Of a stretch of DNA of 64,000 nt, positions 10,932-60,806 are shown in pieces; position 1 is the stretch's first letter, and each line of letters opens with the position of its first letter. The position numbers and the translations under genes were made by a program. The stretch comes from an uncultured Alphaproteobacteria bacterium (GTDB lineage: Bacteria; Pseudomonadota; Alphaproteobacteria; Rs-D84), in assembly GCA_944392535.1 (NCBI GenBank), contig CALXWY010000004.1, positions 1 through 64,000 of the forward strand. Direction: 5' to 3'. The notes beneath the pieces were generated by a model that worked only from the letters and a program-made list of their open reading frames with translations, was not told where the DNA came from and did not search any database.

Positions 10932-13082
10932 ATGAAAAAAACGTCCTTTTGTTTTTTTATGACGGTTGTTATGACTGCGCCATTTGCGTTGGCGGATACA
11001 ACAATATCGCGCGTGTTGCCGACATCTGGTGCCGGTAATACGGGGACGCAATCTGGCCGCACGGCGGGGGCGACAAATGTATCACGTGCCGCGGTTATGC
11101 CGTCGGTTGTGCGAACGGCGAACGTGGTACCTGATGCGTCACCACGTGAATCTGGGGATACAAAAACTGAATCTGGTACGGTGCGCAGTGTTGTAAATCG
11201 CGACGCGTCATCTGGTACATCGGTTTCTGATACATCGGTTGTGCGTGTTGGTTCGCGCGTTTTGAATATGGGCGATGATGCGCCGGGAACGACATCGCGT
11301 GGGTCTGGCAATACGCGGACGGCACCGGTGTCGCGTTCGGTCAGTGCGACAAAAACAAATTCTGCGCGTGAAAATTTAGAAGCGACGGTTAACACAGTTG
11401 GGCGCAACGCACGTGTTGAATCGGCCAGTATAAACAGTAATCCTGTGGTGCGTCGTGCGGGTGTAACATTACGACCAACCACGGCCGAGGTTGGCGGTCG
11501 TGCCACAATCGCGGGCACAGATATCCAGACTGGTTCTAATATCGCGACCGAGGCACGCGCCGTCCAATCGCGCGCGACGACAAACGCGGGAACAGAAACG
11601 ACGGCGGAATCAATCGCGGCGGCCAAGGCAACATTGGAACAGACGGCGGAATTAAACGCATCATGCCAACAACAGTATAATGATTGTATGGATCAATTCT
11701 GTGCGGTTATTGATTCTAACCAGGGACGTTGTTCTTGTTCTGCAAACTTATCTAATTATGCCGAAGTAGAAGAAGCCGTAACCGATGCCAATACCCAGTT
11801 GAATGAGGTTGCACAACAAATTCGCTATGTTGGCCTGTCGGCGGATGAAATACGCGCAATCATGAATGCAACAGAAGCAGAAGAGGCACTGGCCGGCGCG
11901 CGTGATAACACGGCAAACCGCAATATGCTGGAAGAAATAGAAGAATTAATTATGGACCCCACCGGTGGCACATCATATACCGCCAGCAGTGGTTATACGG
12001 GACTGGACATGAACATAGATTTTTCATCGGATATGAGTGATTTGTTCAGCCTGGACTTTTTGAATATGGGCACGACCAGTTTATCTAACCTGCGGGGTAC
12101 GGCGCTGTATAATGCGGCCAAAAGTCGTTGCAAGACAGTGTTGAACCAGTGCAAGGAAGCCGGCGCAAACATTGATCAAATCAGTGGTAATTACGATTTG
12201 GCAATTGACAAGGATTGTATTGCGTATGAACAGGGATTGGAAAAGATGAACGAAACATTAAAATCCAATGTGCGCAGTGCAAATCTGATGTTACAAAAGG
12301 CGCGATTGGCGGTTGTCCAGAACAAAAATCAGTATGATATACGCGGATGCATTGGTGCGCTGGAAACATGTATGACGGATGACATGGTGTGTGGTTCTGA
12401 TTATGAAAAATGCCTGGACCCCAGCAAAAAATACATTGATGAAAACGGCGAAGTGGTATTGGGGCAAGATATCAGTACAATATTGACGAATATGAGTACA
12501 TATGATAATTCCGCCATAAATGCCGACTTTATAAAAAACGCGGTCACAGGATCCGCTGATGACGCAGCTGACACAAACGGGTCCAGCGTCGTAAAATATT
12601 TAATGCAGAAAATCGGTATGGGGGAAGAGGTCACAGATGGCGGTCTGTGTCGGCCGGTACTGGATAAATGCCAGATGTACACATATACCGACAGTGATGA
12701 TGGTAATAAATACAATCAATACAATGATGTTGTTGTGAACTATATCCAGCGTGCCTTGGTAAATATACGCGCGGCCCAGCAACAGATAATATCAGATTAC
12801 GCATCTGAATGCATGGTTGATGTTGCAAATTGCTATAACCAACAGGTGACCCAGGTTAATGCATGGTCTTCAAATGCAGATATTGGCAGTATATATAACG
12901 TTATGCGTGGCGCATGCTATAACGTGGCATTGACGTGCGCATACGCTGTATTTGCAAATGATAAAGCGAACTCATGCAGCACTGCTGATACATGTATAAC
13001 CAATATATCACAAATGTTTTACCAGTCATTGTTGTGTCCGGACGATAAAACATTTGATGTTGTATCCAAGACATGTAAATAA
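10932..13082 (+). CDS. Large secreted protein with low-complexity N-terminus and conserved Cys domain (paralogue A)
   Basis: 716 residues. A signal peptide (MKKTSFCFFMTVVMTAPFALA) is followed by about 190 residues of low-complexity Ser/Thr/Arg/Val/Gly sequence with SGRTAG/SGNTRT-like units. Then comes a domain beginning CQQQYNDCMDQFC and RCSCSANL with a helical, probably coiled-coil segment (AEVEEAV...LNEVAQQI). A middle region (near LFSLDFLNMG) and a C-terminal region with many paired Cys follow. The arrangement matches the gene at 52451, so the two are paralogues. It is probably periplasmic, surface-exposed or secreted. It lies about 2.9 kb from the VirB6-like island and its paralogue lies near virB10; a link to the T4SS is inference. 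The start has a -10 box just upstream and no Shine-Dalgarno. Confidence 0.7.
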   Translation: MKKTSFCFFMTVVMTAPFALADTTISRVLPTSGAGNTGTQSGRTAGATNVSRAAVMPSVVRTANVVPDASPRESGDTKTESGTVRSVVNRDASSGTSVSDTSVVRVGSRVLNMGDDAPGTTSRGSGNTRTAPVSRSVSATKTNSARENLEATVNTVGRNARVESASINSNPVVRRAGVTLRPTTAEVGGRATIAGTDIQTGSNIATEARAVQSRATTNAGTETTAESIAAAKATLEQTAELNASCQQQYNDCMDQFCAVIDSNQGRCSCSANLSNYAEVEEAVTDANTQLNEVAQQIRYVGLSADEIRAIMNATEAEEALAGARDNTANRNMLEEIEELIMDPTGGTSYTASSGYTGLDMNIDFSSDMSDLFSLDFLNMGTTSLSNLRGTALYNAAKSRCKTVLNQCKEAGANIDQISGNYDLAIDKDCIAYEQGLEKMNETLKSNVRSANLMLQKARLAVVQNKNQYDIRGCIGALETCMTDDMVCGSDYEKCLDPSKKYIDENGEVVLGQDISTILTNMSTYDNSAINADFIKNAVTGSADDAADTNGSSVVKYLMQKIGMGEEVTDGGLCRPVLDKCQMYTYTDSDDGNKYNQYNDVVVNYIQRALVNIRAAQQQIISDYASECMVDVANCYNQQVTQVNAWSSNADIGSIYNVMRGACYNVALTCAYAVFANDKANSCSTADTCITNISQMFYQSLLCPDDKTFDVVSKTCK

Positions 13083-15959: not shown

Positions 15960-17243
15960 TTATTTTTTACCCAGTTTGTTAAAGAATTTTTTTGTGTTGT
16001 CCCACAGTTTTTTTGCGTCTTTGGATAAATTTGTACCAAAACTGGCGTCAATTTTGCCGCCAAAGTTATCTTTGGCAATACTGTCGGCGCGCGATGCCAA
16101 GTATGCAACCAGGCATCCCGTTAATAATGTTACAATAAATCCATTGTTTTCTAATGTTGGTATATCTGTTGCGTTATTCAAACTGACTGTCCCAGATAAC
16201 AGGGCCGCACATATGGCAATTACAACAGACAATGATACAAAATAAACAGCCGCATTAATAAAACGTTCAATCTGTCGGTTCAGTGTTTCTGTTTTGAATA
16301 ATCCCAGGAATCCGTTAAATATATCACCGGCGATACCCTTGTATGATGTTTTGCCAATCGTTTCACTGATTGCCGTGAATGGTAACAGCAGCACAGCCAA
16401 GAATAAATCAACAATAACCCCCAGTCCCATAAACGCAAACTTAAATGCGTTATAGATAAATATTACAATAAATGCAATTCCAACCAATACAGTAAAAGCA
16501 CTGGTCCCAATGCCATTAACAACCCATTGCCATCCGGTGGCAACCGCTGTTACGAAAAATCCAGACAGCCGTGTCGGCAGGCACATCATATCTGCGGCGG
16601 CGTCGGAATTAATAATCATGTTGGGCGACGTATGTGTCGCAGCATATTGATGTATCGCCGCACACGTATCGGGTAATTGAACGCCGATAACATTTGTAAC
16701 CGCGTTTAATATCAGGTCAGATAAATATGTTGCAACACCGATAATCGGCCCCATTACCCACATAAAAACCTGGGCCGGGCCAAATGCCAAGATGATAATC
16801 CATATTGCCAGAACAGCGCCTTTTTTGACCAGGTTAACGCCCAATTCCATTGCACTGGAACCCTTGGTCATCATGTTGTATGCTTCAAACATCACCCAGA
16901 ATATGTACGCAACAATTAAAAATATTATTACAAATCGTACCAGCGAATTGTCTAAAACTTCCCCCACCAGCGATAATCCGTTCATTAATGCCAGTCCAAT
17001 TTTCGCCTCTATGGGTACATAATCGGGCACCAGTGTTTTTTCTGTGGATGATTGTTCAAACGCCGTTATATCGTCTTTCAGATTTGTTGTGAACAGCCCC
17101 ATGTTACTGTCTGTGGCCCATGTTCCATAATCGCCAATTTCCGACATCGGGACATTTGCGGTGGCCGCACCCGCCGGGCCCATCATCACCACCATGACGA
17201 TAAGTACCAGAAGTTTTATAAAGATGCGTTTCAGTTTTTTCAT
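15960..17243 (-). CDS. VirB6/TrbL-like T4SS inner-membrane protein (copy 4 of the minus-strand cluster)
   Basis: A 427-residue polytopic protein with a signal peptide (MKKLKRIFIKLLVLIVMVVMMGPAGA cleaved near GAA) and about seven hydrophobic helices, the typical VirB6/TrbL layout. This family forms part of the inner-membrane channel of type IV secretion systems. Two Cys (PDTCAAI, MMCLP) lie in a middle periplasmic loop. The C-terminus is a Lys-rich amphipathic tail (KDAKKLWDNTKKFFNKLGKK) like those of the neighbouring copies. I use ATG 17243 rather than the GTG at 17246. It begins 6 nt after the stop of the gene before it, so it is the last gene of a four-gene operon. Confidence 0.7.
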   Translation of the reverse strand: MKKLKRIFIKLLVLIVMVVMMGPAGAATANVPMSEIGDYGTWATDSNMGLFTTNLKDDITAFEQSSTEKTLVPDYVPIEAKIGLALMNGLSLVGEVLDNSLVRFVIIFLIVAYIFWVMFEAYNMMTKGSSAMELGVNLVKKGAVLAIWIIILAFGPAQVFMWVMGPIIGVATYLSDLILNAVTNVIGVQLPDTCAAIHQYAATHTSPNMIINSDAAADMMCLPTRLSGFFVTAVATGWQWVVNGIGTSAFTVLVGIAFIVIFIYNAFKFAFMGLGVIVDLFLAVLLLPFTAISETIGKTSYKGIAGDIFNGFLGLFKTETLNRQIERFINAAVYFVSLSVVIAICAALLSGTVSLNNATDIPTLENNGFIVTLLTGCLVAYLASRADSIAKDNFGGKIDASFGTNLSKDAKKLWDNTKKFFNKLGKK

Positions 17244-17249
17244 CACAGA

Positions 17250-18692
17250 TTACTTTTTCCCGACCGCCTTGGATATTGTTTCAAATATTTGTTGTGGTGC
17301 ATGCCAGATTTTTTTACCTAAATCTTTTGCCCAGTTTCCAAAGTCAAAACTTTCTTTGCCACCAACATTTAATATTCCATCAATTTTTGGTTTTATGATA
17401 TATAAATATAAACAGAACAATCCAATCATAATTAACAAGAATTCCCATGCGTTACCCATAAAATCAAATGCGCCGGGATATTCGCGTTCCACCGCCGCGC
17501 GTTGCGCGGTAAAGCAGTTTTTGAATACATCTTTATCCATTTCGCCATTGGCGGTGGCAACTTGTTCGCATGTTGAAAATACGTTTACGACCGCCATTGT
17601 TTGGGCGTCTGGATTTTGAATTTCTGCGCCCATCATGGGGGGTAATATCGCACTGTATCCATCACGCGGTCCGGGGAAATATGTGTCTGCGGCGAATGAT
17701 ACAGTTGCATATATTATTAATGTTTTCAATGTAATACCCACAACTTGGATTGCTGTTTTAACCAACAGGTCAATTGATTTTTTTACAACCCCAGATGCCA
17801 ACGACCAAGTTTGTTCAAATGCCGCCGCCGCCAGTAATAATGGCAAGAATATTATCACAAAGACCAATTTGAATACCACAGATAATACTTGGAATACTAA
17901 ATCAAAACCGATAATTAAAAATATCAATACTAACGCCAGGCCAACAACCCATGTTATCGCGCCACCCCCCATATCCAGCCACGCGTAATTCATTAATGAA
18001 AATCCACCCGCTGCCCCGGCCAGCATGACACTGTTTATATTTCCCATAACACACATAAAAGGCTGCAATATTGGGTTCAATATATCGTTTTCTGTACCTG
18101 TTGTGGTATTGGTCATTGCGCCGCATGTCGCAGCATCACTGACCCCTGTTGCCGCCATAGACAATTCTGCGCCGACAAACAGCACCGGCGTAATGGTTAT
18201 GTTCGCAACCGTTTTTAACGCGCCAACACCCCCCATACCTAATGCGCCCATCAGCGCGCCGACAATCAGTACACGGGCACCTTGCCGCCATACTTTGTCA
18301 AACCATGCTTTTAATTCCAGTTTCTTTTCATCTGTATTCAGTTTTTGAGTGTTTTTTGCCGCATCAAATATATATTGTGCGGTATAAATAAATAAAAATA
18401 CACCAAAACCAATTGCCAGCAGTATCCATATATTATCAACCATTGCGGTCCAGAACATTTCAGCCGCCCGCCCGATGACACCAAATAATTCGGCGATATA
18501 TTTACATAAAAAGCACCCATTTGCGGTTGCAATATCACCGTTTGTCACACCAATTGCACCCAGAAAACCATCCATGCTGGTATACGTAATTGCTGCCCCA
18601 CTGATTGATGAAGACAGGTACCATATACCGATACCCAACGCAATTGCGCCCATCAGAAATCGTACGGCAATCATAATCAGTGATGATTTCAT
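17250..18692 (-). CDS. VirB6/TrbL-like T4SS inner-membrane protein (copy 3)
   Basis: A 480-residue polytopic protein. It has an N-terminal hydrophobic helix, a short CFLCKYI loop, several central helices (ILLAIGFGVFLFIYTAQ; WVVGLALVLIFLIIGFDLVF; LVFVIIFLPLLLAAAAFE), a periplasmic loop with CGAM and FMCV Cys, and a final helix before a basic tail ending SKAVGKK. This matches VirB6-type channel subunits. The start overlaps the upstream stop codon by 4 nt (ATGA), showing translational coupling. It is less similar to copies 2 and 5 than those are to each other. Confidence 0.7.
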   Translation of the reverse strand: MKSSLIMIAVRFLMGAIALGIGIWYLSSSISGAAITYTSMDGFLGAIGVTNGDIATANGCFLCKYIAELFGVIGRAAEMFWTAMVDNIWILLAIGFGVFLFIYTAQYIFDAAKNTQKLNTDEKKLELKAWFDKVWRQGARVLIVGALMGALGMGGVGALKTVANITITPVLFVGAELSMAATGVSDAATCGAMTNTTTGTENDILNPILQPFMCVMGNINSVMLAGAAGGFSLMNYAWLDMGGGAITWVVGLALVLIFLIIGFDLVFQVLSVVFKLVFVIIFLPLLLAAAAFEQTWSLASGVVKKSIDLLVKTAIQVVGITLKTLIIYATVSFAADTYFPGPRDGYSAILPPMMGAEIQNPDAQTMAVVNVFSTCEQVATANGEMDKDVFKNCFTAQRAAVEREYPGAFDFMGNAWEFLLIMIGLFCLYLYIIKPKIDGILNVGGKESFDFGNWAKDLGKKIWHAPQQIFETISKAVGKK

Positions 18693-19912
18693 TTGCCTGA
18701 ATCCTTTGGTTTATCGGTATCTGTTTTTTTATCATCGGATTTTCCGCCACTTATGATTGTGGCACCGATGTTTTTAGCGGTGTTGGCAACAGCCTTGGTT
18801 AATTGCATTGCGTCATTTGCCAGTTGTTCAGATAATGCTTTTTCTTCGCCAACGCCGAATGATTCCATTACCATTTTCGTTACATTGGGAATCTGCGAGT
18901 ATATAAAGTTTATCACATATATTAACACGACGCACGATGCAATGGTCATCATTTCCAGATTATCAAAAGACAAATCACTGGATAATATATTACCGCTGGT
19001 TATCATGGTCATAATTTCTGCGGATGATTGCCCAGGTGCCGCAAAGAATTTAGAAATTATTACCATTATAACTGTATATGTTAATACGGCTGCGGCCAAT
19101 GCAATAATTGCATTTATTAAGTTTTTTATTTGCTGGGTGCCGATGCTTTTACCCAATGTTGACAGCCAAGACGGCACATTGTCGGCACCTTTGAATGCTG
19201 CCAATATCAGCGACAATGGAAACAAGAACGCAAAGAAAGCCATCGCAACAATAATATCTGCAAAATAAAAACAGAATCGTACAAAGAATTTTATAAAACC
19301 ATAAAAAACATAAAACCCGACAAAGAACAAAATAATGTGTTTAATTAAATTACCGATGCCCAATAATGCGCGTATTGAAAATGCGCCGTCCATCAATGCA
19401 ATTCCCATTTTCATATACGATTGAAATTGGGTTATTGTTGTCTTCATCAGCATAATGATTTTATCGCGCAGTTGCGGGCGATAGAAACCATCATCAGACA
19501 TTTTCATTGGTTGATATGTTACTTTTTCATTTACTGTTTCAGAATCTGTTTGCAACATACTCTGTGTATATATTAATGCCAAATCTGCGACGGGTTCAAA
19601 AGTAATTGTTGTCACAAACCGCGGCAGATAAACCCCCATGCTTAAAAAAGTCAACGATACCAGTGAATTTATGATCACAGGCTTAACAGATTTCTGATAC
19701 CACGGGTCACCGACGCCGCCCTTGATATTTTTCCACACGGCATTTATCACGAAAAATGCGAACAATACACAGAATATAATCGCACAGAATATTACAAATT
19801 GATTATACACGGCCCCGGCCGCATCAGACACAATCTGGAACAGCCGGTCAAACACCGGACAGCCCCAGCACTGTACGGATGAATCAACCAAAGAATTCAT
19901 AAATTCGTTCAT
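18689..19912 (-). CDS. VirB6/TrbL-like T4SS inner-membrane protein (copy 2)
   Basis: A 407-residue polytopic protein. Near the N-terminus it has CWGCPVFDRLF, then a helix, then GVGDPWYQKS and YLPRFVTTITFEPV. The same order (CWxCxxF, DPW, LPR, EP) occurs in the divergent copy at 21275, so these two are close paralogues. Central helices follow, and the tail is Lys/Asp-rich (DDKKTDTDKPKDSGK). It is predicted to sit in the inner membrane as part of the T4SS channel. Its start overlaps the upstream stop by 4 nt, and its own stop overlaps the next start in the same way. Confidence 0.72.
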   Translation of the reverse strand: MNEFMNSLVDSSVQCWGCPVFDRLFQIVSDAAGAVYNQFVIFCAIIFCVLFAFFVINAVWKNIKGGVGDPWYQKSVKPVIINSLVSLTFLSMGVYLPRFVTTITFEPVADLALIYTQSMLQTDSETVNEKVTYQPMKMSDDGFYRPQLRDKIIMLMKTTITQFQSYMKMGIALMDGAFSIRALLGIGNLIKHIILFFVGFYVFYGFIKFFVRFCFYFADIIVAMAFFAFLFPLSLILAAFKGADNVPSWLSTLGKSIGTQQIKNLINAIIALAAAVLTYTVIMVIISKFFAAPGQSSAEIMTMITSGNILSSDLSFDNLEMMTIASCVVLIYVINFIYSQIPNVTKMVMESFGVGEEKALSEQLANDAMQLTKAVANTAKNIGATIISGGKSDDKKTDTDKPKDSGK

Positions 19913-21204
19913 TTCTTTTTAATCCACCCGATTGCTTTACCAATTGTTTTACCAAAATCTTTTGTTTTATTAACCAATTTTGTTGTGTCTTTCTTTACCG
20001 TGTTGTACATGTTGTCCATCCCGACACCAACATATTCATTCAATTTTTCACGTGTTAAATTAAATATCTTCATCATCAAATAGAACGTTAGTATTGACGA
20101 CATCCACAATAACGAATGTTGGCCGAATCCCAACGCAGTATTTGCAACCTGGGGGACATTAGATGTCGCAACCCCGCCGGCGGCAACGACGAATACCGAT
20201 GAACTCCATTGAAACAACGATTTTATAATCGCAACATTTACACACAATATAAACGCACATGCAATCATTGTTATGACCAGTTTTTGCAGTGCCTTGATAA
20301 TACCGCCAAACGCCGGCCAGATATCAAACCATTTATCACTGCGTTTTGCCACGTATGCCAGGACCTGGAATGGATACAGCACCAGCGCCATGCCAAAGTT
20401 AAATATCGCCTGGATAATCAGCATCGCCATAAACAAATTGCTGGCCACAAATGTGAAGATTAAAACCAGTCCTGTAACCACGTTCAACAGATTTTCACCG
20501 CCGTGCGGAATCAGGGTTAACATCCCGCGCAACCCATTGGTCAAGAAATCAAATCCGCGTTTAATCACCTGGTTATTTGCGTGTGATATATCTGCCACAG
20601 GTTGCACCAAAAACTCACAACTGGATTGTGAAATCCATCCTTGTTGAATAACTGATGGCGGGCATTCAACATGTGGGGCGGAAATTCCAGTGTCGTTTAA
20701 TGTGTCCAGTATACTTTCGGTATAGATTGCGCCGAACTGCAAAAACGGGTTAACCAGCCATTCGGTCAGATATATCGGCTTTAATTGCAATAATACAACC
20801 GCTGCGATAATTGCGCGTATGGTGGGCTTTAACATATTTGTTGCGATTGTCATGCCACCGACGCCATCTGACATAGATTCCCCACCAGAAATATCCAGCA
20901 TGGATGAAAATGTTTTCGGAAAATACAGTTTTAATAAATATCCCGCCAATGATATGGCCAAGAATCCCCAAACCAAGATATAAATAATACCATCGCCGTT
21001 GCCGACAAAAAATTCATAACCACCGGTTGCAATGGCCATCAATGCATCCAGGATTATTGGAATAAACGGGGCCAGATTCAGTGAATCAACCAATGAATAA
21101 TCGGCGGCATACGCACTGGATGATGTGCAAAACACAGCGACGCATACAATCACTGGAATTATGCGCGTTATAATCGCCAAGATTTTTGACTTTAATTGAT
21201 TCAT
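19909..21204 (-). CDS. VirB6/TrbL-like T4SS inner-membrane protein (copy 1, first gene of the cluster)
   Basis: A 431-residue protein with a signal peptide (cleavage near SSAYAA) and six or seven membrane helices. Two Cys lie in a periplasmic loop (VECPP, SSCEF), and the tail is Lys-rich (KKDTTKLVNKTKDFGK...GWIKKK). This is a VirB6/TrbL-type channel subunit. The open frame extends 232 codons further upstream but runs antisense through the divergent copy at 21275, so it is not coding. The ATG at 21204 follows directly on a run of seven G; ATG 21216 is an alternative. It heads an operon of four membrane proteins. Confidence 0.72.
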   Translation of the reverse strand: MNQLKSKILAIITRIIPVIVCVAVFCTSSSAYAADYSLVDSLNLAPFIPIILDALMAIATGGYEFFVGNGDGIIYILVWGFLAISLAGYLLKLYFPKTFSSMLDISGGESMSDGVGGMTIATNMLKPTIRAIIAAVVLLQLKPIYLTEWLVNPFLQFGAIYTESILDTLNDTGISAPHVECPPSVIQQGWISQSSCEFLVQPVADISHANNQVIKRGFDFLTNGLRGMLTLIPHGGENLLNVVTGLVLIFTFVASNLFMAMLIIQAIFNFGMALVLYPFQVLAYVAKRSDKWFDIWPAFGGIIKALQKLVITMIACAFILCVNVAIIKSLFQWSSSVFVVAAGGVATSNVPQVANTALGFGQHSLLWMSSILTFYLMMKIFNLTREKLNEYVGVGMDNMYNTVKKDTTKLVNKTKDFGKTIGKAIGWIKKK

Positions 21205-21257
21205 CCCCCCCAACATTAATTTTATCTTTTCAATTATATCACATTTAATGCAAAATA

Positions 21258-21266
21258 TGATATACT
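21258..21266 (+). promoter_or_regulatory. Extended -10 promoter for the divergent VirB6-like gene
   Basis: TGA-TATACT with -10 at 21261-21266, exactly 8 nt before ATG 21275. No Shine-Dalgarno is present, so a leaderless mRNA is predicted. The divergent minus-strand operon starts 70 nt away, so the two probably share control signals. Confidence 0.55.
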
Positions 21267-21274
21267 TAAAAACA

Positions 21275-22564
21275 ATGAACAGACTAAAAAAATTCTGGAT
21301 AATTTTTTTATCTTTTCTGCCATTTTCGGCGGGGGCTGTTGCGCCATTTGTTGTTGGGGCAATTGCCGGCGTTGGTGTAATTGCCGGTTTTTCAATATAT
21401 CGTACCGTGGCACCGGTTAATATGTCTGATGCGCTGGATTTCTTTTCAACATGTTGGTCGTGCCAAATGTTTTCTGATGTTATGGCAACAATGGGTGGAC
21501 TGTTACCACGTGTGTACAGTGCAATTGGCACGGTTATTTTACCATTTGCGGCGATATTATTGGCGGTTTGGTTTGCGTGGAAATTGTTTTCTGGATTTAT
21601 TAACGCAAAATTAGAAGATCCATGGGCGCTGACGGGTAATTTTGGCACGCAACTGATAAAATTGTGCTTTGTTGGTGCGTTGCTGATGGCGCCATTACCA
21701 CGGCTGTTGACCAGTGTTGTTATTGAACCAATATTTAATGTCGGACTGTCGTTAAATCGTGTCGTCGCAGGAAATGATGAATTTGCCGAATGCATGGTTG
21801 CGACGGCGTTGGCGGACCCAACATCGGCCAGTGTTGATGCGGCGTCATCTGGGGCGTTTTCGCCGAACTTGCGCCACAGTTTGGCATGTGAAATTGCCAA
21901 TGTACATCAAATGACTGGGCTGGGGATGACGGTCGGATGGACTATGCTGAATATGGCGTTTAATGAAGAATATATGCACAAGATTATGTGGGTAATACCA
22001 ATATTTCCGAATGTACCGATTTTCTTTGCTGGGTTATTAATACTGGTACTGTTTTTCATGGCGCTGTTGCCCGTTCCGTTATATTTTCTGGAAGTTTTTA
22101 TAAAATTGTCTATGGATTTAATAATGTTGCCATTAATGCTGCTGTCGTGGCTGTTCAAAGGCTGGCCGATTTTCCCAAACGGTGGGCGTAATATACGCAG
22201 TATCATAGATGATGTTATAAAATCTACATTGGGAATTGCGCTGGTTGGGGTGTTTATAACATTTGCCGTAATGTTTTTGAATGCAGTGTTTGGTCGCTGG
22301 CATGGTGCTGACAGATTGGCGGCGGCATTGGCACAAAACGATGCAACATTGCTGATGGACGGATTGATGATGCGTAATGACAGTATAATAACGATTCTGC
22401 TGATGGGAATATTTGTCGCGATGTTTATGACAATGATACCGGCATTAGTAAAAACTTTGTTCAGCCAGGTTGAAATACCGCAAACTTTCTATGAAACAGC
22501 CAAAAAAGACATAAATAAAGTGTGGGCAAATGCCAAGAAATGGTACGAATCATTAAAAAAATAA
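21275..22564 (+). CDS. VirB6/TrbL-like T4SS inner-membrane protein (divergent copy 5)
   Basis: A 429-residue polytopic protein with a signal peptide (MNRLKKFWIIFLSFLPFSAGA). It then has CWSCQMFSDVM, a hydrophobic helix, KLEDPWALTG and LPRLLTSVVIEPIFNVG, the same motif order as copy 2. A pair of Cys (AECMV, LACEI), several helices (ILVLFFMALLPVPLYFLEVF) and a basic tail (AKKDINKVWANAKKWYESLKK in outline) follow. A VirB6-like T4SS channel subunit is the best call. ATG 21275 is chosen over 21248, which lies upstream of the -10 box. Confidence 0.72.
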   Translation: MNRLKKFWIIFLSFLPFSAGAVAPFVVGAIAGVGVIAGFSIYRTVAPVNMSDALDFFSTCWSCQMFSDVMATMGGLLPRVYSAIGTVILPFAAILLAVWFAWKLFSGFINAKLEDPWALTGNFGTQLIKLCFVGALLMAPLPRLLTSVVIEPIFNVGLSLNRVVAGNDEFAECMVATALADPTSASVDAASSGAFSPNLRHSLACEIANVHQMTGLGMTVGWTMLNMAFNEEYMHKIMWVIPIFPNVPIFFAGLLILVLFFMALLPVPLYFLEVFIKLSMDLIMLPLMLLSWLFKGWPIFPNGGRNIRSIIDDVIKSTLGIALVGVFITFAVMFLNAVFGRWHGADRLAAALAQNDATLLMDGLMMRNDSIITILLMGIFVAMFMTMIPALVKTLFSQVEIPQTFYETAKKDINKVWANAKKWYESLKK

Positions 22565-52270: not shown

Positions 52271-52450
52271 TGTATTTTGCCAAAATAAAACTGATAAAGA
52301 TTCATAAATTCATATTGTTTGTTGCGGGTTTTCTTATTTACAGACATTCGCAAAAATGATATAATTATATAAAATAATGACGTAATGGCGTGCCCATTGC
52401 GTGCGAAATTGGCGGGATTCCGGTCTTTCCCGGAACACAGGGAGTGTTTA

Positions 52451-54643
52451 ATGAAAAAGCGTAATTTTGCAGATTCATTCAAAAATGCGATGGGGACTGT
52501 ATTTTTACTGGCGGGCGCATTTTTTGTTTGCTCTACATTTTTATCTATGCGTTCGGTGTTGGCGGATCCGATTGCACCGGTGGCCCAGAATAATGTTATC
52601 ACCCCCCAGGCAACGCGTGCCGGCAACACATCACGCACATCGCGTCCGGCAACATCGCGTGGGAATTCTGCAAATATTGTTTCGCGTGGAAACGCGACGA
52701 CAACGGTCACATCACCGCGCGGCACCACCGCCAGTCGCAGTGTTGTATCACGTACGACCACCACACCAACAGTGGCGGCTGGGACGGCGACGGCATCATC
52801 GCGTGTGGCGACGTCTGGTCGTCCGACAATGACAACATCACGCGGAAATACGACAACAACGGCGCGTCCATCTGCGTCGGGGGCGTCACGTAATGTCGTG
52901 TCGCGTACGACGACAACAACGGCATCGCGCGTGGCGGCAAATAATCCGACGCGCAGTGTGCGTTCGCGTACGACAACAAATCCATCGCGCATATCATTAC
53001 AGGGCAGTGCCATCCGTGGCAGTTATGCAACAAATTCCAATACGTATACATACCTGCAAAACAGATTGTACACTGGGAATTATTCAAACATCATTGATTC
53101 TTCAACCGGATTGATTTCCGCCGAAGCGTACAATAACTGTATGGAATCATATTATGCATGTATGGACGAAATCTGCACGGCCCGTAACGCGGCCCAGCGT
53201 CGTTGTGCATGCGCAGGACGCGTTCGTGCATTTGCCGATGCCGAAGCAAAACTGGAACAGGCAAACGAAGAACTTATCAAGGTTTCTGGTGAACTGGCAC
53301 TGTTAATCGCAACCAAGGGCAAAGATATCAGTGCCGCATTCCAATTGACTGATGCAGAAAAAGTGATGAACTGTGTTTCATGGCAAGAAATTACCAGCCA
53401 ATATGGTGACAGTTCGGATGAGGCGGTTGAATGGTGCTATAACCACGGCTTTTATGATGACAGCAATGGCGGTGGGATGAGCCCATGTACGAACCCCAGT
53501 TATTGTACATCAGATGGTAATTCGTTTGGCTTTGATATCAATAATATTTCCGGTGGCAGCAGTGATATTTTGGCATCATTACAGTCATGGGCCGATGCCA
53601 AGGAAAAAACACTGACAATATTGGATCAAGATAATGATAATATCTTGGAAGCGTTTGAAAACCTGACCGATGTTGTTGGTAATTTGGCGGGGATTGGTAA
53701 TGCGATTGGTGATACAGAATCTTTGAAAGATTCATTGGCTGAAACATGGGGGTACGAATTATTTGAATATGCCCATAATAATGTATGTAACCGCGTTTTG
53801 GATTCTTGCTTTAATGGTATATATGAAGCATGCGGTACCCCGCCATCTGGGGGCACCAAGTGCGGAAACGGTCGTTCACAATGTCCGTACAATTACAACA
53901 GTTATATATCTGTATCCAACACGGGTGATTATTCGTTGAACTTTATTACCCCAGATACTGGATATACATCATCCAATTCGGCGACATGTTTTGGATATTC
54001 ATCTGCATCGGGTGACCCGTATGCCGACCTGCGTGGACCGGTTGCTGATGCACGGCGCAGCATTATGCAGAAATATGCATTGGATGCAAATGCGGACTGT
54101 GACGCGTATGGTGAACAATTGACCACCACGGCACAAAATATTGGTTATCAAAAGGCCGCGGCGCAACAGGCATTGCAACAGAAACGTCTGGAATTCTATC
54201 AAGAAGAACAAGAAACAATGAAATCTGATTATGATGATGCGATCAGCAATTTTACAGAATGTTTGTCTGAATTGTATGATTGCTATGAAACCCAGGCAAA
54301 ATCAGAATCAGGTTGGACCGATGCGCGTATCAAAACATATTGCGCCCAGGTTGCAAATGTTCCGCATTGCTATGAACAAATGGTTTGCAATCCATCTGAT
54401 TCCCAGATATCCAAGGTTATCAGTCTGACAGACAGCAAAACATGCAATAATACCCAGGATGTCAGCAAGAATACATGCCGCAATGTTGTAACATTAAATG
54501 AAATATTGAACGGCGTGACCGGTGGGGATGGGGATACGGAATGCACAGGTGATGATTTGACCCAGTGTAATTCTGCGGTGATACGTGAAAACTGCTTGCT
54601 GGAAAATTGGGCGTCTGAAATCCGTGACTGGACCAAGCAGTAA
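52451..54643 (+). CDS. Large secreted protein with low-complexity N-terminus and conserved Cys domain (paralogue B)
   Basis: 730 residues. A signal-anchor or signal peptide (TVFLLAGAFFVCSTFLSMRSVLA) is followed by about 150 residues of Thr/Ser/Arg/Ala low complexity (SRGNATTTVTSPRG, VVSRTTTTP). Then comes the shared domain: YNNCMESYYACMDEIC, QRRCACAGRV and a helical segment (AEAKLEQANEELIKVSGEL). Later Cys-rich regions (CGTPPSGGTKCGNGRSQCPYN) and a long C-terminal helix (YQKAAAQQALQQKRLEFY) are present. It matches the layout of the gene at 10932. GGGAG precedes ATG 52451, and an extended -10 (52359-52364) lies upstream. It sits about 1 kb from the 3' end of virB10. Function unknown. Confidence 0.7.
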   Translation: MKKRNFADSFKNAMGTVFLLAGAFFVCSTFLSMRSVLADPIAPVAQNNVITPQATRAGNTSRTSRPATSRGNSANIVSRGNATTTVTSPRGTTASRSVVSRTTTTPTVAAGTATASSRVATSGRPTMTTSRGNTTTTARPSASGASRNVVSRTTTTTASRVAANNPTRSVRSRTTTNPSRISLQGSAIRGSYATNSNTYTYLQNRLYTGNYSNIIDSSTGLISAEAYNNCMESYYACMDEICTARNAAQRRCACAGRVRAFADAEAKLEQANEELIKVSGELALLIATKGKDISAAFQLTDAEKVMNCVSWQEITSQYGDSSDEAVEWCYNHGFYDDSNGGGMSPCTNPSYCTSDGNSFGFDINNISGGSSDILASLQSWADAKEKTLTILDQDNDNILEAFENLTDVVGNLAGIGNAIGDTESLKDSLAETWGYELFEYAHNNVCNRVLDSCFNGIYEACGTPPSGGTKCGNGRSQCPYNYNSYISVSNTGDYSLNFITPDTGYTSSNSATCFGYSSASGDPYADLRGPVADARRSIMQKYALDANADCDAYGEQLTTTAQNIGYQKAAAQQALQQKRLEFYQEEQETMKSDYDDAISNFTECLSELYDCYETQAKSESGWTDARIKTYCAQVANVPHCYEQMVCNPSDSQISKVISLTDSKTCNNTQDVSKNTCRNVVTLNEILNGVTGGDGDTECTGDDLTQCNSAVIRENCLLENWASEIRDWTKQ

Positions 54644-55707: not shown

Positions 55708-58152
55708 TTACAATATCGGCGGGAAACAATCGCCCCCTGTTTCCGGACAGCAATTGAATCCTTGTTCGCCCATATCGGTATATATTTCACCCGGACAGCA
55801 ACCGTATTCATCAGGTGCCACCCCGCCATCGCATGTTATGACTGTTTCTGTGGTTTCTGTGACATCTGTCAATGCGTCTGATTCAACGAATGGATTTTGA
55901 ATCGCGCCACTGTCATCATATGTCAACCCCAAGATATCTTCGTTATACGCCTGGCTGCCGGTTATACCACTCAGGCCACTGATTGTATTTGATGCCCCCG
56001 ATGATTGAACACTGTAACTGTTCTGGAATTGCTGTTGTTGATTTTGGTATACCGCATCTTGGCGTGCATTATTAATCGCCTGGTAATTCAATGATTGACA
56101 ATACGCCAACACAGTTCTGTAATCGTATCCAGAATTTATAATTTCACCTTCTACGCCAGGCTTAATATCCCAAATGCCATCACTGTCCGTTGTGCAATAT
56201 TGTTCCAGATTAAATGAACGTACTTGGCCTGTCCATGAACCATCATTCGGATTAACGGTGACATTGTGGCGCCAATTAGGACGCAATTGTGTCTCCTGGT
56301 ACAGATTTTCAACAGAACAGATTTTATCTGCGTCGTGACCACATGTTATAACCAAATCAGTCGGTGAATATACGGTTATACGTGTACCGGCCGCAATAGA
56401 AAATGGCGGAATGGTATTATCCATGGCATCAACCAGTAACTTTTGTGCAACCTGGTTCCATGCGGTAATAATTTCATTTTTGGCCAATTCGGATGAACGA
56501 ATTGTTCCGCTTTGCACAACGGTATTATTATCCAGATCAATTTGGTTTATAAATGCATCTGATATTGGTGCAATCATATTAACCGCCGCCGGCACAATCG
56601 CGGTCAGCATTGGCATAACCAATTGTTCAACATAATCTGTACTGCCGTGTCCAGGAACACCGACACGACCCTGGGAATCCGCCGAAAAAGGATCCTGGTT
56701 TGGGTCGCCGGTGAAATTGAATTCAACCCCATTTGGCAATATAAATTGATACCAATTAATATTCATGCGTCCAATTGACTTATACGGTCCCGGCAATTCA
56801 CCATTAACATATCCCAACATTAGTGTGCCAGTTGGAATTACAATCGTGCGTCCATCATCAGAATAAACATTTCTGTCAACAGTTGCCTGGACCGGCAGTG
56901 CATGACCAGATTCATAAATTGTTGGGTCGGCGCGAACCTCGGACACAATTGTTGCAGGAATTGGTTTATACTGGCGCAGAACAAAACTTCTGTCATATGG
57001 GTCTGACGAATATGTTGCCGAACCACTGGTTCCGACAATAACTTGTGCTTTGGGTGCGGCCTTTAATTCAACATGCTTCATTTGACCCGCTGACGATAAT
57101 TGTGGCAGTGCGTTTATTTCCGCCGCGGTTAATTGTACCGCTTTATTTTCATTGCGTGTTGTTGCCGGATTAGACAGTTGTGGTAATGTTCCATTTGTTA
57201 TTGTTGTATATCCGATATGTTCGGCATCTGTACCAATTTTTTGTGCCGGATTATTTATATCTGTGATAATACCGTTGTCTGGATTATACGTTCCGGTTGG
57301 ATTTTTGCACTCTGTATCAGAAAACGGATGGAAATAATATGCGCCACCGCTGGGGCGAATCCATCCACTCTGCACCCCTGACAAGTTGTAACCCGGCATG
57401 GCAAAGTCAGAACATGCCTCAGACGGTACAGGGGCCGTTGTATTTGCGCCGGTATCTGTCATTGTGGTGACAGTTGGTTCATCATCAAACACAAAATCAT
57501 TTGTTGGTATAATTTCTGCCAATTCAGATTTTATTTCTTGTTTGATTGTTGGGGTTGGCGCAACAACCGGTTCAGGCGCAACCACGGGTTCTGATTCAAT
57601 AATCGGTTCTGGATCTGGGATTACAAGCGGTTCTGGTTCAACAACCGGCGCTGGGTCGTTGGCACCAACAACCAAAATGGCACGCCCAGTATTTTTCATG
57701 CTTTCAGATGCGTTTGCATCATGCCATTCAATGTACAATTCTGTGGTTGTTACATCAGATGCCGCAATCGGACTGTATTCCAAAACAATTGTGCATGCAT
57801 TATCTGCATCAATTTGCCCCATTGATGTGCATGTTTGCTGTATTGGTTGCTTTAATCCCGGAATATCGTGTTCCAGGTTAACCCCGACAATTTTTATTGG
57901 TGCACTGGCCGTAACCTTTATTGTTTCGGTTTTTGTATCACCAACAGACACATCTGGCCATTCAATTGTATCTGGCACAATTCCCAATGTAATGGCGACA
58001 TCGCCGTTGCTTTCCAGTACTTCTTCTTCGTGGTTTGTTAACAACAGTGTTAACAGTATAATTACGACAACAAACGCCGCCGCCAACAACAGCCATTGTA
58101 TATGCTTTGGCGTATTTTTGCGCATTTCTGAAAATTGTTTTTTTATATTCAT
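55708..58152 (-). CDS. virB10: T4SS core protein VirB10/TrbI with N-terminal Ig-like domain and Cys-rich C-terminal tail
   Basis: A 814-residue core subunit that spans inner membrane, periplasm and outer membrane. One membrane helix lies at about 19-39 (WLLLAAAFVVVIILLTLLL). Next is a beta-rich domain (about 50-165) resembling an Ig-like/ASH fold (IEWPDVSVGDTKTETIKVT, CTIVLEYSP). A Pro/Glu-rich linker (about 170-205) follows, and then the TrbI/VirB10 domain with LPVQATVDRNVYSDDGR, VIPTGTLMLGYVNG and GRMNINWYQFILPNG. Beyond it are about 200 residues, ending in a Cys cluster (YGCCPGEIY, NCCPETGGDC). The helix and domain make it VirB10. ATG 58152 has GTGGGT before it; TTG 58173 is an alternative. 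Confidence 0.85.
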   Translation of the reverse strand: MNIKKQFSEMRKNTPKHIQWLLLAAAFVVVIILLTLLLTNHEEEVLESNGDVAITLGIVPDTIEWPDVSVGDTKTETIKVTASAPIKIVGVNLEHDIPGLKQPIQQTCTSMGQIDADNACTIVLEYSPIAASDVTTTELYIEWHDANASESMKNTGRAILVVGANDPAPVVEPEPLVIPDPEPIIESEPVVAPEPVVAPTPTIKQEIKSELAEIIPTNDFVFDDEPTVTTMTDTGANTTAPVPSEACSDFAMPGYNLSGVQSGWIRPSGGAYYFHPFSDTECKNPTGTYNPDNGIITDINNPAQKIGTDAEHIGYTTITNGTLPQLSNPATTRNENKAVQLTAAEINALPQLSSAGQMKHVELKAAPKAQVIVGTSGSATYSSDPYDRSFVLRQYKPIPATIVSEVRADPTIYESGHALPVQATVDRNVYSDDGRTIVIPTGTLMLGYVNGELPGPYKSIGRMNINWYQFILPNGVEFNFTGDPNQDPFSADSQGRVGVPGHGSTDYVEQLVMPMLTAIVPAAVNMIAPISDAFINQIDLDNNTVVQSGTIRSSELAKNEIITAWNQVAQKLLVDAMDNTIPPFSIAAGTRITVYSPTDLVITCGHDADKICSVENLYQETQLRPNWRHNVTVNPNDGSWTGQVRSFNLEQYCTTDSDGIWDIKPGVEGEIINSGYDYRTVLAYCQSLNYQAINNARQDAVYQNQQQQFQNSYSVQSSGASNTISGLSGITGSQAYNEDILGLTYDDSGAIQNPFVESDALTDVTETTETVITCDGGVAPDEYGCCPGEIYTDMGEQGFNCCPETGGDCFPPIL

Positions 58153-58173
58153 TTTACCCACAGATTCTGACAA

Positions 58174-59697
58174 TTATTGTACGCGCACGACACTGCAACT
58201 GGTTCCACTGAATTCCAGTAACTGGTTGCATAATTGTTGGGCCGTATTTACATCAGACAGCGGTCCAATGCGCAACCGATACAGACGCGCAGCCGAAGAA
58301 TCCGCCCCCAAATCACCGACCCCTTGTTCGTCCACCGCAAAGAACACCATGTCTTTATATGGGGTTAATATACCTTGACCGTCATCGCCACTGAATTTCG
58401 CCAACAGATTTGCCCAATAATCATCCAACGCCTTGACCGATGTGTCGGATTTCAATTCAACCGCGACACCGGTTTGATTACTGGTTATCAATGGAATGTT
58501 TGACTGTGGCAAGAACGAACCCGCCGTTAACCGTTCTGTGGGCACCATTGCGGTTGTGGTTGTCCCGCCACTGGTGACGGCCGGCATGGCGTACCCCGCC
58601 GGTGCGTAATATCCACTGGTTGTGCCCGCCGGCATATTACCAACCATAATTGGTGACGTTGTATAACCATTTACAGATGCGTTAATCGCCGCCTGGTCCG
58701 CGCTGTACGCGATATTATTTAACGATTGGCCAGACATAATGGATTGCGCAACGTTCGCTTCGGCCAACGCCATAACCGATGCCGTATCCGCAATCAAGAA
58801 CGGTTTTTCGCGCTTTTTGATACAAACAATGCGTTGCCCACTGCGCAGAACCATGTCACCAACCGCTTCAACGATTAACAGACGGCCATCTTCGCCATCC
58901 GTGCGGAATCCGACTGGTGATTCACCGCCTTCTATTAATAAAGATACAACCGGGCGCTGGGTCATGGAAATAACCTTGTCCCCAAAGTCAATATACGTAA
59001 ATATCCGATCGCGCCATACGCGTTCAGGTGCAATAACATAATCGTCTGGATTTGGAACGAATATATCCAGGTCAAATCGGAATTCAGACGGATCAATTTT
59101 CATTGATTTAATCCATCCGTAATCTTCGCCATCAACCCCAATCGTACTGGCGGCGGCATTTTGCTTTTTGAATATAGACGACGATCCGCCGGCGGCATTT
59201 GTTGCGCCAGATGCGGTTGACACTGGTGCATTACCATCCAATACGACATCAACCTGGGAATATGTAATTTCACTGGAATTAGATGGTTCGCTGCGCAGAT
59301 AAAATGTGTACACGTTCCCAGATTCACCCGACACAATCAAATTAGTATCCGAACCCTGGTTGCTGGATACCGGGGTGATGAACATCGTGCTGCCCCCTTG
59401 GGTTGCATCAATTGAAAACAGCCCATCATTTCCGATAACGGCATCTGCAATTTTTTCGCCGTTTGGCAGTGCAATCAATGTTGTCATTCCGTTACGCAAT
59501 TTTACGGGTAAAACACTGCCCTTGGACCAGGTCAATTGTGCGTATCCAGGCTTGACACTGCCGGCGGCCATGTTTGCCGTTGGATTATCCCATGCCGATT
59601 GCACGCCATAGTTCGTTCCAGCAGCCATCGCGCCCCCGCACAACAACACCAGGCATAATACAGATACATTTAATTTAACCGCCTTTGAAAATGTCAT
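58174..59697 (-). CDS. virB9: T4SS outer-membrane complex protein VirB9 with C-terminal SPOR domain
   Basis: A 507-residue exported protein (signal peptide ending AMAA). The N-terminal VirB9/CagX domain has RNGMTTLIALPNGEKIADAV and TNLIVSGESGNVYTFYLR. The C-terminal VirB9 part has PERVWRDRIFTYIDFGDKV, GESPVGFRTDG and MVLRSGQRIVCIKK. The usual VirB9 ends there (about 270-300 residues). Here an additional linker (about 320-410) and a SPOR domain (about 412-507: VELKSDTSVKALDDYWANL, RLYRLRIGPLSD, CNQLLEFSGTSCSVVRV) follow. SPOR binds peptidoglycan lacking stem peptides. AAGGGAAAGG precedes the ATG. Confidence 0.87.
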   Translation of the reverse strand: MTFSKAVKLNVSVLCLVLLCGGAMAAGTNYGVQSAWDNPTANMAAGSVKPGYAQLTWSKGSVLPVKLRNGMTTLIALPNGEKIADAVIGNDGLFSIDATQGGSTMFITPVSSNQGSDTNLIVSGESGNVYTFYLRSEPSNSSEITYSQVDVVLDGNAPVSTASGATNAAGGSSSIFKKQNAAASTIGVDGEDYGWIKSMKIDPSEFRFDLDIFVPNPDDYVIAPERVWRDRIFTYIDFGDKVISMTQRPVVSLLIEGGESPVGFRTDGEDGRLLIVEAVGDMVLRSGQRIVCIKKREKPFLIADTASVMALAEANVAQSIMSGQSLNNIAYSADQAAINASVNGYTTSPIMVGNMPAGTTSGYYAPAGYAMPAVTSGGTTTTAMVPTERLTAGSFLPQSNIPLITSNQTGVAVELKSDTSVKALDDYWANLLAKFSGDDGQGILTPYKDMVFFAVDEQGVGDLGADSSAARLYRLRIGPLSDVNTAQQLCNQLLEFSGTSCSVVRVQ

Positions 59698-59726: not shown

Positions 59727-60401
59727 TTAATTACTTGCCAGATAACCTGTATCCAACGGATCGCCGTTACCAGATTCAATTGTGTATTCAGAAACCCGAA
59801 TGCCCAATGGATTATCCAGTCGTTCGTCCCATTTTATCGTTGCGTTATCTTCCATTTCCAATTTCAATTGTATTGTATAATCTTTTTTATCCATCTGTCT
59901 ATTACTATCTGAACAGAAATAACGAAATTTTACAGAATAAACATCATTTCCGCGTGGCGAAATCGCCCCATTGTCAAATTCCACAGAACAAGAAAATTCA
60001 AAATCCGGAACCCCACCCATCCATGCATTCCACATATTTGTTTGGGTAAAGGCGTTGTATACATCTTGGGTTGACCATTCGTACACGACACCGTTATCAG
60101 CATTATTCCATTTTTCGCGCATTTCGGCGGCATTTGGTACAATTTCATTCCGTGCCCGAATGTATTCGCGAATAAATGTGCGCTTAAAATTATCAAGATT
60201 TTCATCAACCGGCACCAATTCCCGTAATACAACGGTCAAATTATCCTGGGGGGCGGTCATTAAAAAGAACACCTGGGGCCGATTTAATGGATACATATTA
60301 TACACCGCAACCAGCATCACAACCAGCACGACCAGCATCGTTGTAAAAACAAACAGCATCAGCCTGGACAACAAAATCGGCGGTTCTATGCGGTTTTGCA
60401 A
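59727..60401 (-). CDS. virB8: T4SS inner-membrane protein VirB8
   Basis: A 224-residue protein with one N-terminal membrane helix (LMLFVFTTMLVVLVVMLVAVY) and a periplasmic NTF2-like domain. FIREYIRARNEIVPNA and the ending NPLGIRVSEYTIESG match VirB8, where the last segment is usually NPLGFxVxxYR. VirB8 bridges VirB6, VirB9 and VirB10. It starts at TTG 60401, because AAGGAG lies 9 nt before it; the longer frame upstream to 60458 is not needed. virB9 follows after 29 nt, virB10 after that. The gene order and spacing show one operon. Confidence 0.8.
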   Translation of the reverse strand: MQNRIEPPILLSRLMLFVFTTMLVVLVVMLVAVYNMYPLNRPQVFFLMTAPQDNLTVVLRELVPVDENLDNFKRTFIREYIRARNEIVPNAAEMREKWNNADNGVVYEWSTQDVYNAFTQTNMWNAWMGGVPDFEFSCSVEFDNGAISPRGNDVYSVKFRYFCSDSNRQMDKKDYTIQLKLEMEDNATIKWDERLDNPLGIRVSEYTIESGNGDPLDTGYLASN

Positions 60402-60609
60402 CTGATTTCTCTCCTTCTTATTAACCAGATTGTAGAAAAAAATCAGACATATACGCAAGTAAAAAAAGTTATGTTTTTGTGCGTCTGGGAAACGCCAGTT
60501 TGTGTTTGGTATATCGTGTTCAAACTTTGTTCACATATTTTCGCGATGTTTTTGATAATAATAACTTTTTGCTTGCGCTGCGGTGATTAAAAAATTATAA
60601 TATTTCCGC

Positions 60610-60637
60610 TTGATTTTCTGTACGTATGTGCTATCTT
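60610..60637 (+). promoter_or_regulatory. Promoter of the tRNA-Trp-secE-nusG region
   Basis: TTGATT (60610-60615), 16-nt spacer, TATCTT (60632-60637). Similar to the rplU promoter. It lies about 55 nt upstream of tRNA-Trp. Confidence 0.6.
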
Positions 60638-60692
60638 GTCGCAGACTGTTGGGGTAAAACGGTGCGGCAAGACGGATAAAAGTGCAGTTTTC

Positions 60693-60766
60693 AGGGGCAT
60701 AGTTCAACGGTAGAATATCGGTCTCCAAAACCGCGGATGAGGGTTCGATTCCTTCTGCCCCTGCCA
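60693..60766 (+). tRNA. trnW: tRNA-Trp (anticodon CCA)
   Basis: Acceptor stem AGGGGCA (60693-60699) pairs with TGCCCCT (60756-60762), and GCCA is encoded at the 3' end. The anticodon loop is CTCCAAA with CCA, and the T-arm has GGTTCGATTCC. tRNA-Trp upstream of secE-nusG is a common bacterial order. The antisense frame over it is not a gene. Confidence 0.96.
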
Positions 60767-60806
60767 GAAAATTCGCCAAAATATGCTTGTCATATTTTGG
60801 GGAATT
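60749..60806 (+). repeat. Direct repeat copy 1 including the tRNA-Trp 3' end
   Basis: 58 nt that include the last 18 nt of the tRNA (from TTCCTTCTGCC to CCA) plus 40 nt beyond. It recurs 181 bp downstream with two mismatches. Confidence 0.85.

Follow-up and report, generated by a model that had tools for sequence, protein, structure and literature searches.

A VirB9 protein of Rs-D84 Alphaproteobacteria extended by a predicted SPOR-type domain with an altered glycan-binding position

How the channels of type IV secretion systems (T4SSs) are held in the cell wall is little understood, and a wall-binding-type domain inside a core subunit of such a channel offers a direct handle on it. A candidate for such a subunit is encoded in the window analysed here, a stretch of 64,000 nucleotides from an uncultured alphaproteobacterium of the order Rs-D84, to which Candidatus Enterousia has been assigned (PMC12306168). 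The virB9 gene of this window (58174-59697, minus strand) is a single uninterrupted open reading frame of 507 amino acids plus stop. The first-pass annotation had proposed that this VirB9 is extended by a linker and a C-terminal SPOR domain, which would tie the channel to the wall and perhaps to division sites. Is the extension real and of the SPOR type, and what could it bind?

The protein begins with a putative signal peptide (residues 1-25; 59623-59697, minus strand), as indicated by a hydrophobic N-terminus running to ...GGAMA and by a helix at residues 3-25 of the model. The VirB9/CagX core covers residues about 30-300 (58798-59610, minus strand) and is followed by an Ala/Gly-rich, low-complexity linker at residues about 301-405 (58483-58797, minus strand), which is the most variable segment and has a pLDDT below 50 over residues 294-406. 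The core was matched by the Pfam CagX/VirB9 family (PF03524) at residues 54-295 (E = 2.8e-21, 76.7 bits against a curated cut-off of 34.2 bits), and so were all of the 29 diverse aligned VirB9 homologues. Foldseek searches with the whole-protein AlphaFold model returned VirB9 homologues first (6gyb, 8rt6, 7o3t), with RlpA-SPOR among the next matches; the core has a predicted VirB9 fold, with VirB9, TrwF and DotH at the top and CagX also matched, and its C-terminal half is of low confidence in a full-length model that is poor overall (pLDDT 58). Against the NCBIfam equivalog for P-type VirB9 (TIGR02781), the protein scored 50.5 bits, below the cut-off of 217.7 bits.

The remaining residues, about 406-507 (58177-58482, minus strand), were assigned to a SPOR-type domain based on Pfam, fold prediction, Foldseek and dN/dS. 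When the protein was searched alone with hmmscan, the SPOR family (PF05036) matched only through the second half of its profile, at residues 467-504 (E = 0.0023), with 18.7 bits against a curated cut-off of 21 bits; in the genome search the score was 21.3 bits, above the cut-off, which makes the match borderline overall, and relatives clear the cut-off. SPOR was matched at E <= 0.05 in all 29 aligned homologues (best 1e-7), and the weak single-sequence score is therefore not a chance result. An alignment of the C-terminal region gave only chance matches in a profile search against the PDB, so a fold search was needed. Residues 410-506 were predicted by AlphaFold to adopt a beta-alpha-beta-beta-alpha-beta fold, separated from the core by the disordered linker. 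The top three PDB matches of the domain-only model (pLDDT 78.5) were all SPOR domains, namely the two RlpA-SPOR entries 6i09 and 6i05 and DedD 6ztg, the best being 6i09, from P. aeruginosa and with denuded glycan (E = 1.8e-3, TM 0.70 by target); the E values of the three, about 2e-3 to 9e-3, are modest, yet they point to one family throughout. The SPOR motifs quoted earlier, including YRLRIGPL, are present. The tail of VirB9 was thus confirmed, at the level of the predicted structure, as a SPOR-type domain, whose boundary lies nearer to residue 406 than to residue 400.

The fusion is widespread. In Rs-D84, a VirB9 orthologue was matched in 185 of 201 genomes, covering 22 of the 23 genera and all six families, and the match is nearly always one alignment through residue 507 with the frame open. 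The fusion also occurs in five further alphaproteobacterial families; it was found in 12/12 genomes of one further order, and in another order VirB9 was matched in 91 of 112 genomes, with the SPOR part seen in nearly all of them. No VirB9-SPOR was found outside Alphaproteobacteria in a phylum sample of 398 genomes, an absence that is open to doubt given a profile weak for distant VirB9 proteins. VirB4 is present in seven Enterousia genomes in which VirB9 was not matched, and since many VirB9-bearing contigs start or stop about 1 kb from virB9, we suspect contig breaks rather than loss of the gene. The breadth of this distribution bears on whether an assembly or sequencing error joined virB9 to an unrelated gene, or whether SPOR was matched by chance. 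The sub-threshold score of the single sequence and the metagenome-assembled nature of the genomes would speak for such an artefact; against it stand the structure search, which puts SPOR first, and the single open frame in independent assemblies from six families and other orders. An artefact is exceedingly improbable, and a sequencing error, which had been named as one event that would undo the claim, was rejected on the conservation of the fusion across these assemblies.

To trace the origin of the fusion, 55 VirB9 cores (39 SPOR-bearing, 16 SPOR-less) were placed in a tree after removal of the SPOR part. The 39 SPOR-bearing cores form one clade with a long stem and a support of 100/100; some SPOR-less rows have long branches and an unsure order, and the split between the two kinds is well supported. 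Since all SPOR-bearing cores form one clade, the tree indicates that the fusion arose once, long ago, in an alphaproteobacterial ancestor. Two genomes (G263 and G585) of an order with VirB9-SPOR throughout hold one or two extra VirB9 copies that end normally, and these copies are an internal control for the extension. Based on comparisons with 31 close orthologues, the median dN/dS was 0.031 for the SPOR part, 0.052 for the core and 0.088 for the linker, values that are rough, with dS near saturation and only 20-23 pairs giving valid estimates; the median dN followed the same order (0.069, 0.086 and 0.147, respectively). These estimates indicate that the SPOR part is under constraint at least as strong as that on the core, which speaks against an appended tail in decay.

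The gene lies in a T4SS context. It is preceded in the same cluster by virB8 (59727-60458, minus strand; Pfam VirB8, 6.8e-15) and directly followed by virB10 (55708-58173, minus strand; Pfam TrbI, 5.2e-15), and the order virB8-virB9(-virB10) is conserved across the VirB9-SPOR loci compared. The system resembles the VirB/VirD4 type: besides VirB8 and VirB10, the genome encodes a single VirB4 and a separate VirD4, and a gene just before VirB4 is assigned to VirB3 by size and place only. Five polytopic membrane proteins (15960-22564, four on the minus strand and the last on the plus strand), for which Pfam gave no explanatory match, are VirB6-like by context only and may be several copies of VirB6, an arrangement seen in Rickettsiales. 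The genome also encodes a cell-wall amidase and three ordinary SPOR proteins, an FtsN-like protein, RlpA and DacA, the last in agreement with the SPOR domain already ascribed to it.

Several other genes have features of their own. The VirB10 of the window has a Cys-rich tail and a weak Ig-like stretch at residues 66-142 (choice-of-anchor D, choice_anch_D; NCBIfam), and HYDIN/Cep192-type Ig matches were found in a SPOR-less relative (L190:4449-6038). In three other VirB9-SPOR families, VirB10 reaches giant size, with as many as 2348 amino acids (L182:8847-15890, L184:9011-15589, L183:1-3942; one of these is cut by the edge of its stretch), in which many beta-flower repeats (PF21785/PF21784) are followed by a TrbI domain near the C-terminal end. 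The literature search returned no paper with VirB10 and beta-flower together, and these giants are possibly more striking than VirB9-SPOR itself. Rs-D84 members examined have one virB8, and several families that do not belong to this order have a tandem pair of virB8-like genes upstream of virB9-SPOR (L182:5618-7326, L183:9191-11035, L185:9162-10894, L186:4691-6543). Elsewhere in the window, two large, secreted-looking, Thr/Ser-rich, Cys-containing proteins (52385-54643 and 10932-13082) without a Pfam family are candidate surface proteins; they have in common a partly low-complexity region (E = 2e-9) that shows a Cys pattern like CxxxYxxCMDxxC. The open reading frame at 60531-60779 is probably no gene, because a tRNA-Trp gene (60693-60766) overlaps it on the opposite strand.

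What the domain could bind was considered from its glycan-site residues. In RlpA-SPOR, three residues (Q270, R302 and R309) were reported to touch the denuded glycan through their side chains, and R311 completes a basic patch; when SPOR domains with solved structures are compared, only Q270, which corresponds to Q251 of FtsN, is highly conserved (PMC6895207). In an alignment of 41 VirB9 SPOR domains, this position is Glu in 40 and Asp in one (E414 in the window protein, codon 58456-58458, minus strand), whereas all 30 of the other SPOR domains, taken from this and related genomes, have Gln. Four residues further on, at the position of RlpA F274, 26 of the 41 have Asp, and Phe or Tyr is found in 21 of the 30 others. 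The position of R309 is Arg in 36 and His in five, and that of R311 is Arg in 41/41. Compared with the glycan-binding kind, the VirB9 domain retains the basic patch and lacks the conserved glutamine. Judged from the sequence, a negative charge opposite the lactyl carboxylate would be unfavourable for the classical SPOR ligand, and the exchange of Gln for Glu with retained arginines suggests a retuned target other than the usual septal glycan; a peptide-substituted strand, an N-deacetylated strand or a protein could be guessed as the ligand favoured by Glu. Since Glu or Asp replaces the glutamine throughout the VirB9 SPOR domains, even binding to the wall is uncertain.

A tether to the wall or to a wall-bound partner is nevertheless a plausible function and the best reading of the domain. 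Core complexes of known structure contain about 14 copies of VirB9 or more, their N-terminal domains forming the I-layer and their C-terminal domains the outer ring of the O-layer (PMC12857230). By analogy, about 14 SPOR-type domains arranged in a ring would hang into the periplasm below the outer layer, a placing borrowed from other systems because the full-protein model is poor, and the flexible linker of about 100 residues would allow the domains to reach the wall. Through numerous weak contacts with the cell wall, or with a wall-bound partner, they could then hold the outer-membrane channel in place at the sacculus and may aid its assembly, spacing or mechanical stability; the AMIN domains of PilQ are a precedent for wall-binding domains that position an envelope machine (PMC5285504). 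It is on balance somewhat probable that the protein is a VirB9 belonging to a chromosomal T4SS, that it gained a SPOR-type domain once, and that weak contacts with wall or partner seat the channel at the sacculus. A more specific version, in which the Gln-to-Glu change has respecified the domain to read another wall glycan (e.g., peptide-bearing or N-deacetylated) or a new partner, and in which about 14 copies in a ring anchor the channel, is tentative and on the whole doubtful.

Two other readings were weighed against this tether. The domain could bind denuded septal glycan in the classical way and so place the T4SS at division sites and hence later at the poles. The SPOR fold, the retained equivalents of R309 and R311, the three ordinary SPOR proteins of the same genome and the amidase, which could generate denuded glycan, are all consistent with this, and PilQ is a precedent here too, as its AMIN domains show that a channel subunit can bring its machine to division sites by means of wall-binding domains (PMC5285504). 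The residue that was replaced in 41/41 domains, however, is among the principal contacts that side chains make with denuded glycan (PMC6895207), and the aromatic residue four positions on is mostly Asp as well, which makes the classical reading rather unlikely. Of what was proposed at first, the fusion stands, the wall tie is plausible, the denuded-glycan reading is unsecured, and targeting to division sites is a guess. Alternatively, the SPOR fold could serve as a protein-protein module without glycan binding, for instance docking a periplasmic T4SS or wall protein, or VirB10. Loss of the glutamine while the remainder is very strongly conserved would fit such a module, as would the unusual VirB10 partners of SPOR-bearing lineages (the beta-flower giants of three families), but the arginine pair and the strand register of the glycan site are retained; this alternative is considered unlikely.

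If the tether exists, a ring of respecified SPOR domains would be a wall anchor built into the T4SS core, absent from described systems. The literature search, with subscription journals and most preprints outside its coverage, returned no paper with VirB9 and a SPOR domain, and a 2025 review of T4SSs makes no mention of SPOR (PMC12857230). The component families are known; neither their combination and its breadth nor the residue switch seems to have been described. VirB9-SPOR has been passed down in several orders, among them host-dependent gut bacteria whose genomes are near 1 Mb in size, and it shows that a T4SS is widely conserved in Rs-D84, for which a metabolic study inferred a symbiont or parasite lifestyle, with the word "secretion" absent from its main text (PMC12306168). 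The consistent switch from Gln to Glu or Asp provides a clean single-codon test of recognition by the SPOR fold.

Among known systems, the VirB9/TrwF/CagX/DotH core subunits are the closest in the Pfam CagX core, the Foldseek matches and the order virB8-virB9-virB10, and the linker and SPOR-type domain are extra in the window protein: solved VirB9 chains have 255-266 residues and SPOR-less copies in related genomes about 290-347, against 507 here. With the SPOR domains of FtsN, DamX, DedD and RlpA, the domain has in common the beta-alpha-beta-beta-alpha-beta fold (predicted here) and the YRLRxGP strand, and like the alphaproteobacterial FtsN-like SPOR domain of the same genome it contains two Cys; it differs from them in the replacement of Gln by Glu or Asp and in its fusion to a secretion-channel subunit. 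The PilQ secretin of type IVa pili is likewise an outer-membrane channel subunit with wall-binding-type domains (PMC5285504), but both its channel and its domain, an N-terminal AMIN, are unrelated to those of VirB9-SPOR. GspB/OutB of the type II secretion system is also reported to tie a secretion pore of the outer membrane to the wall, and it does so as a separate scaffold protein (PMC9239104), whereas in VirB9-SPOR the domain lies within the pore subunit itself.
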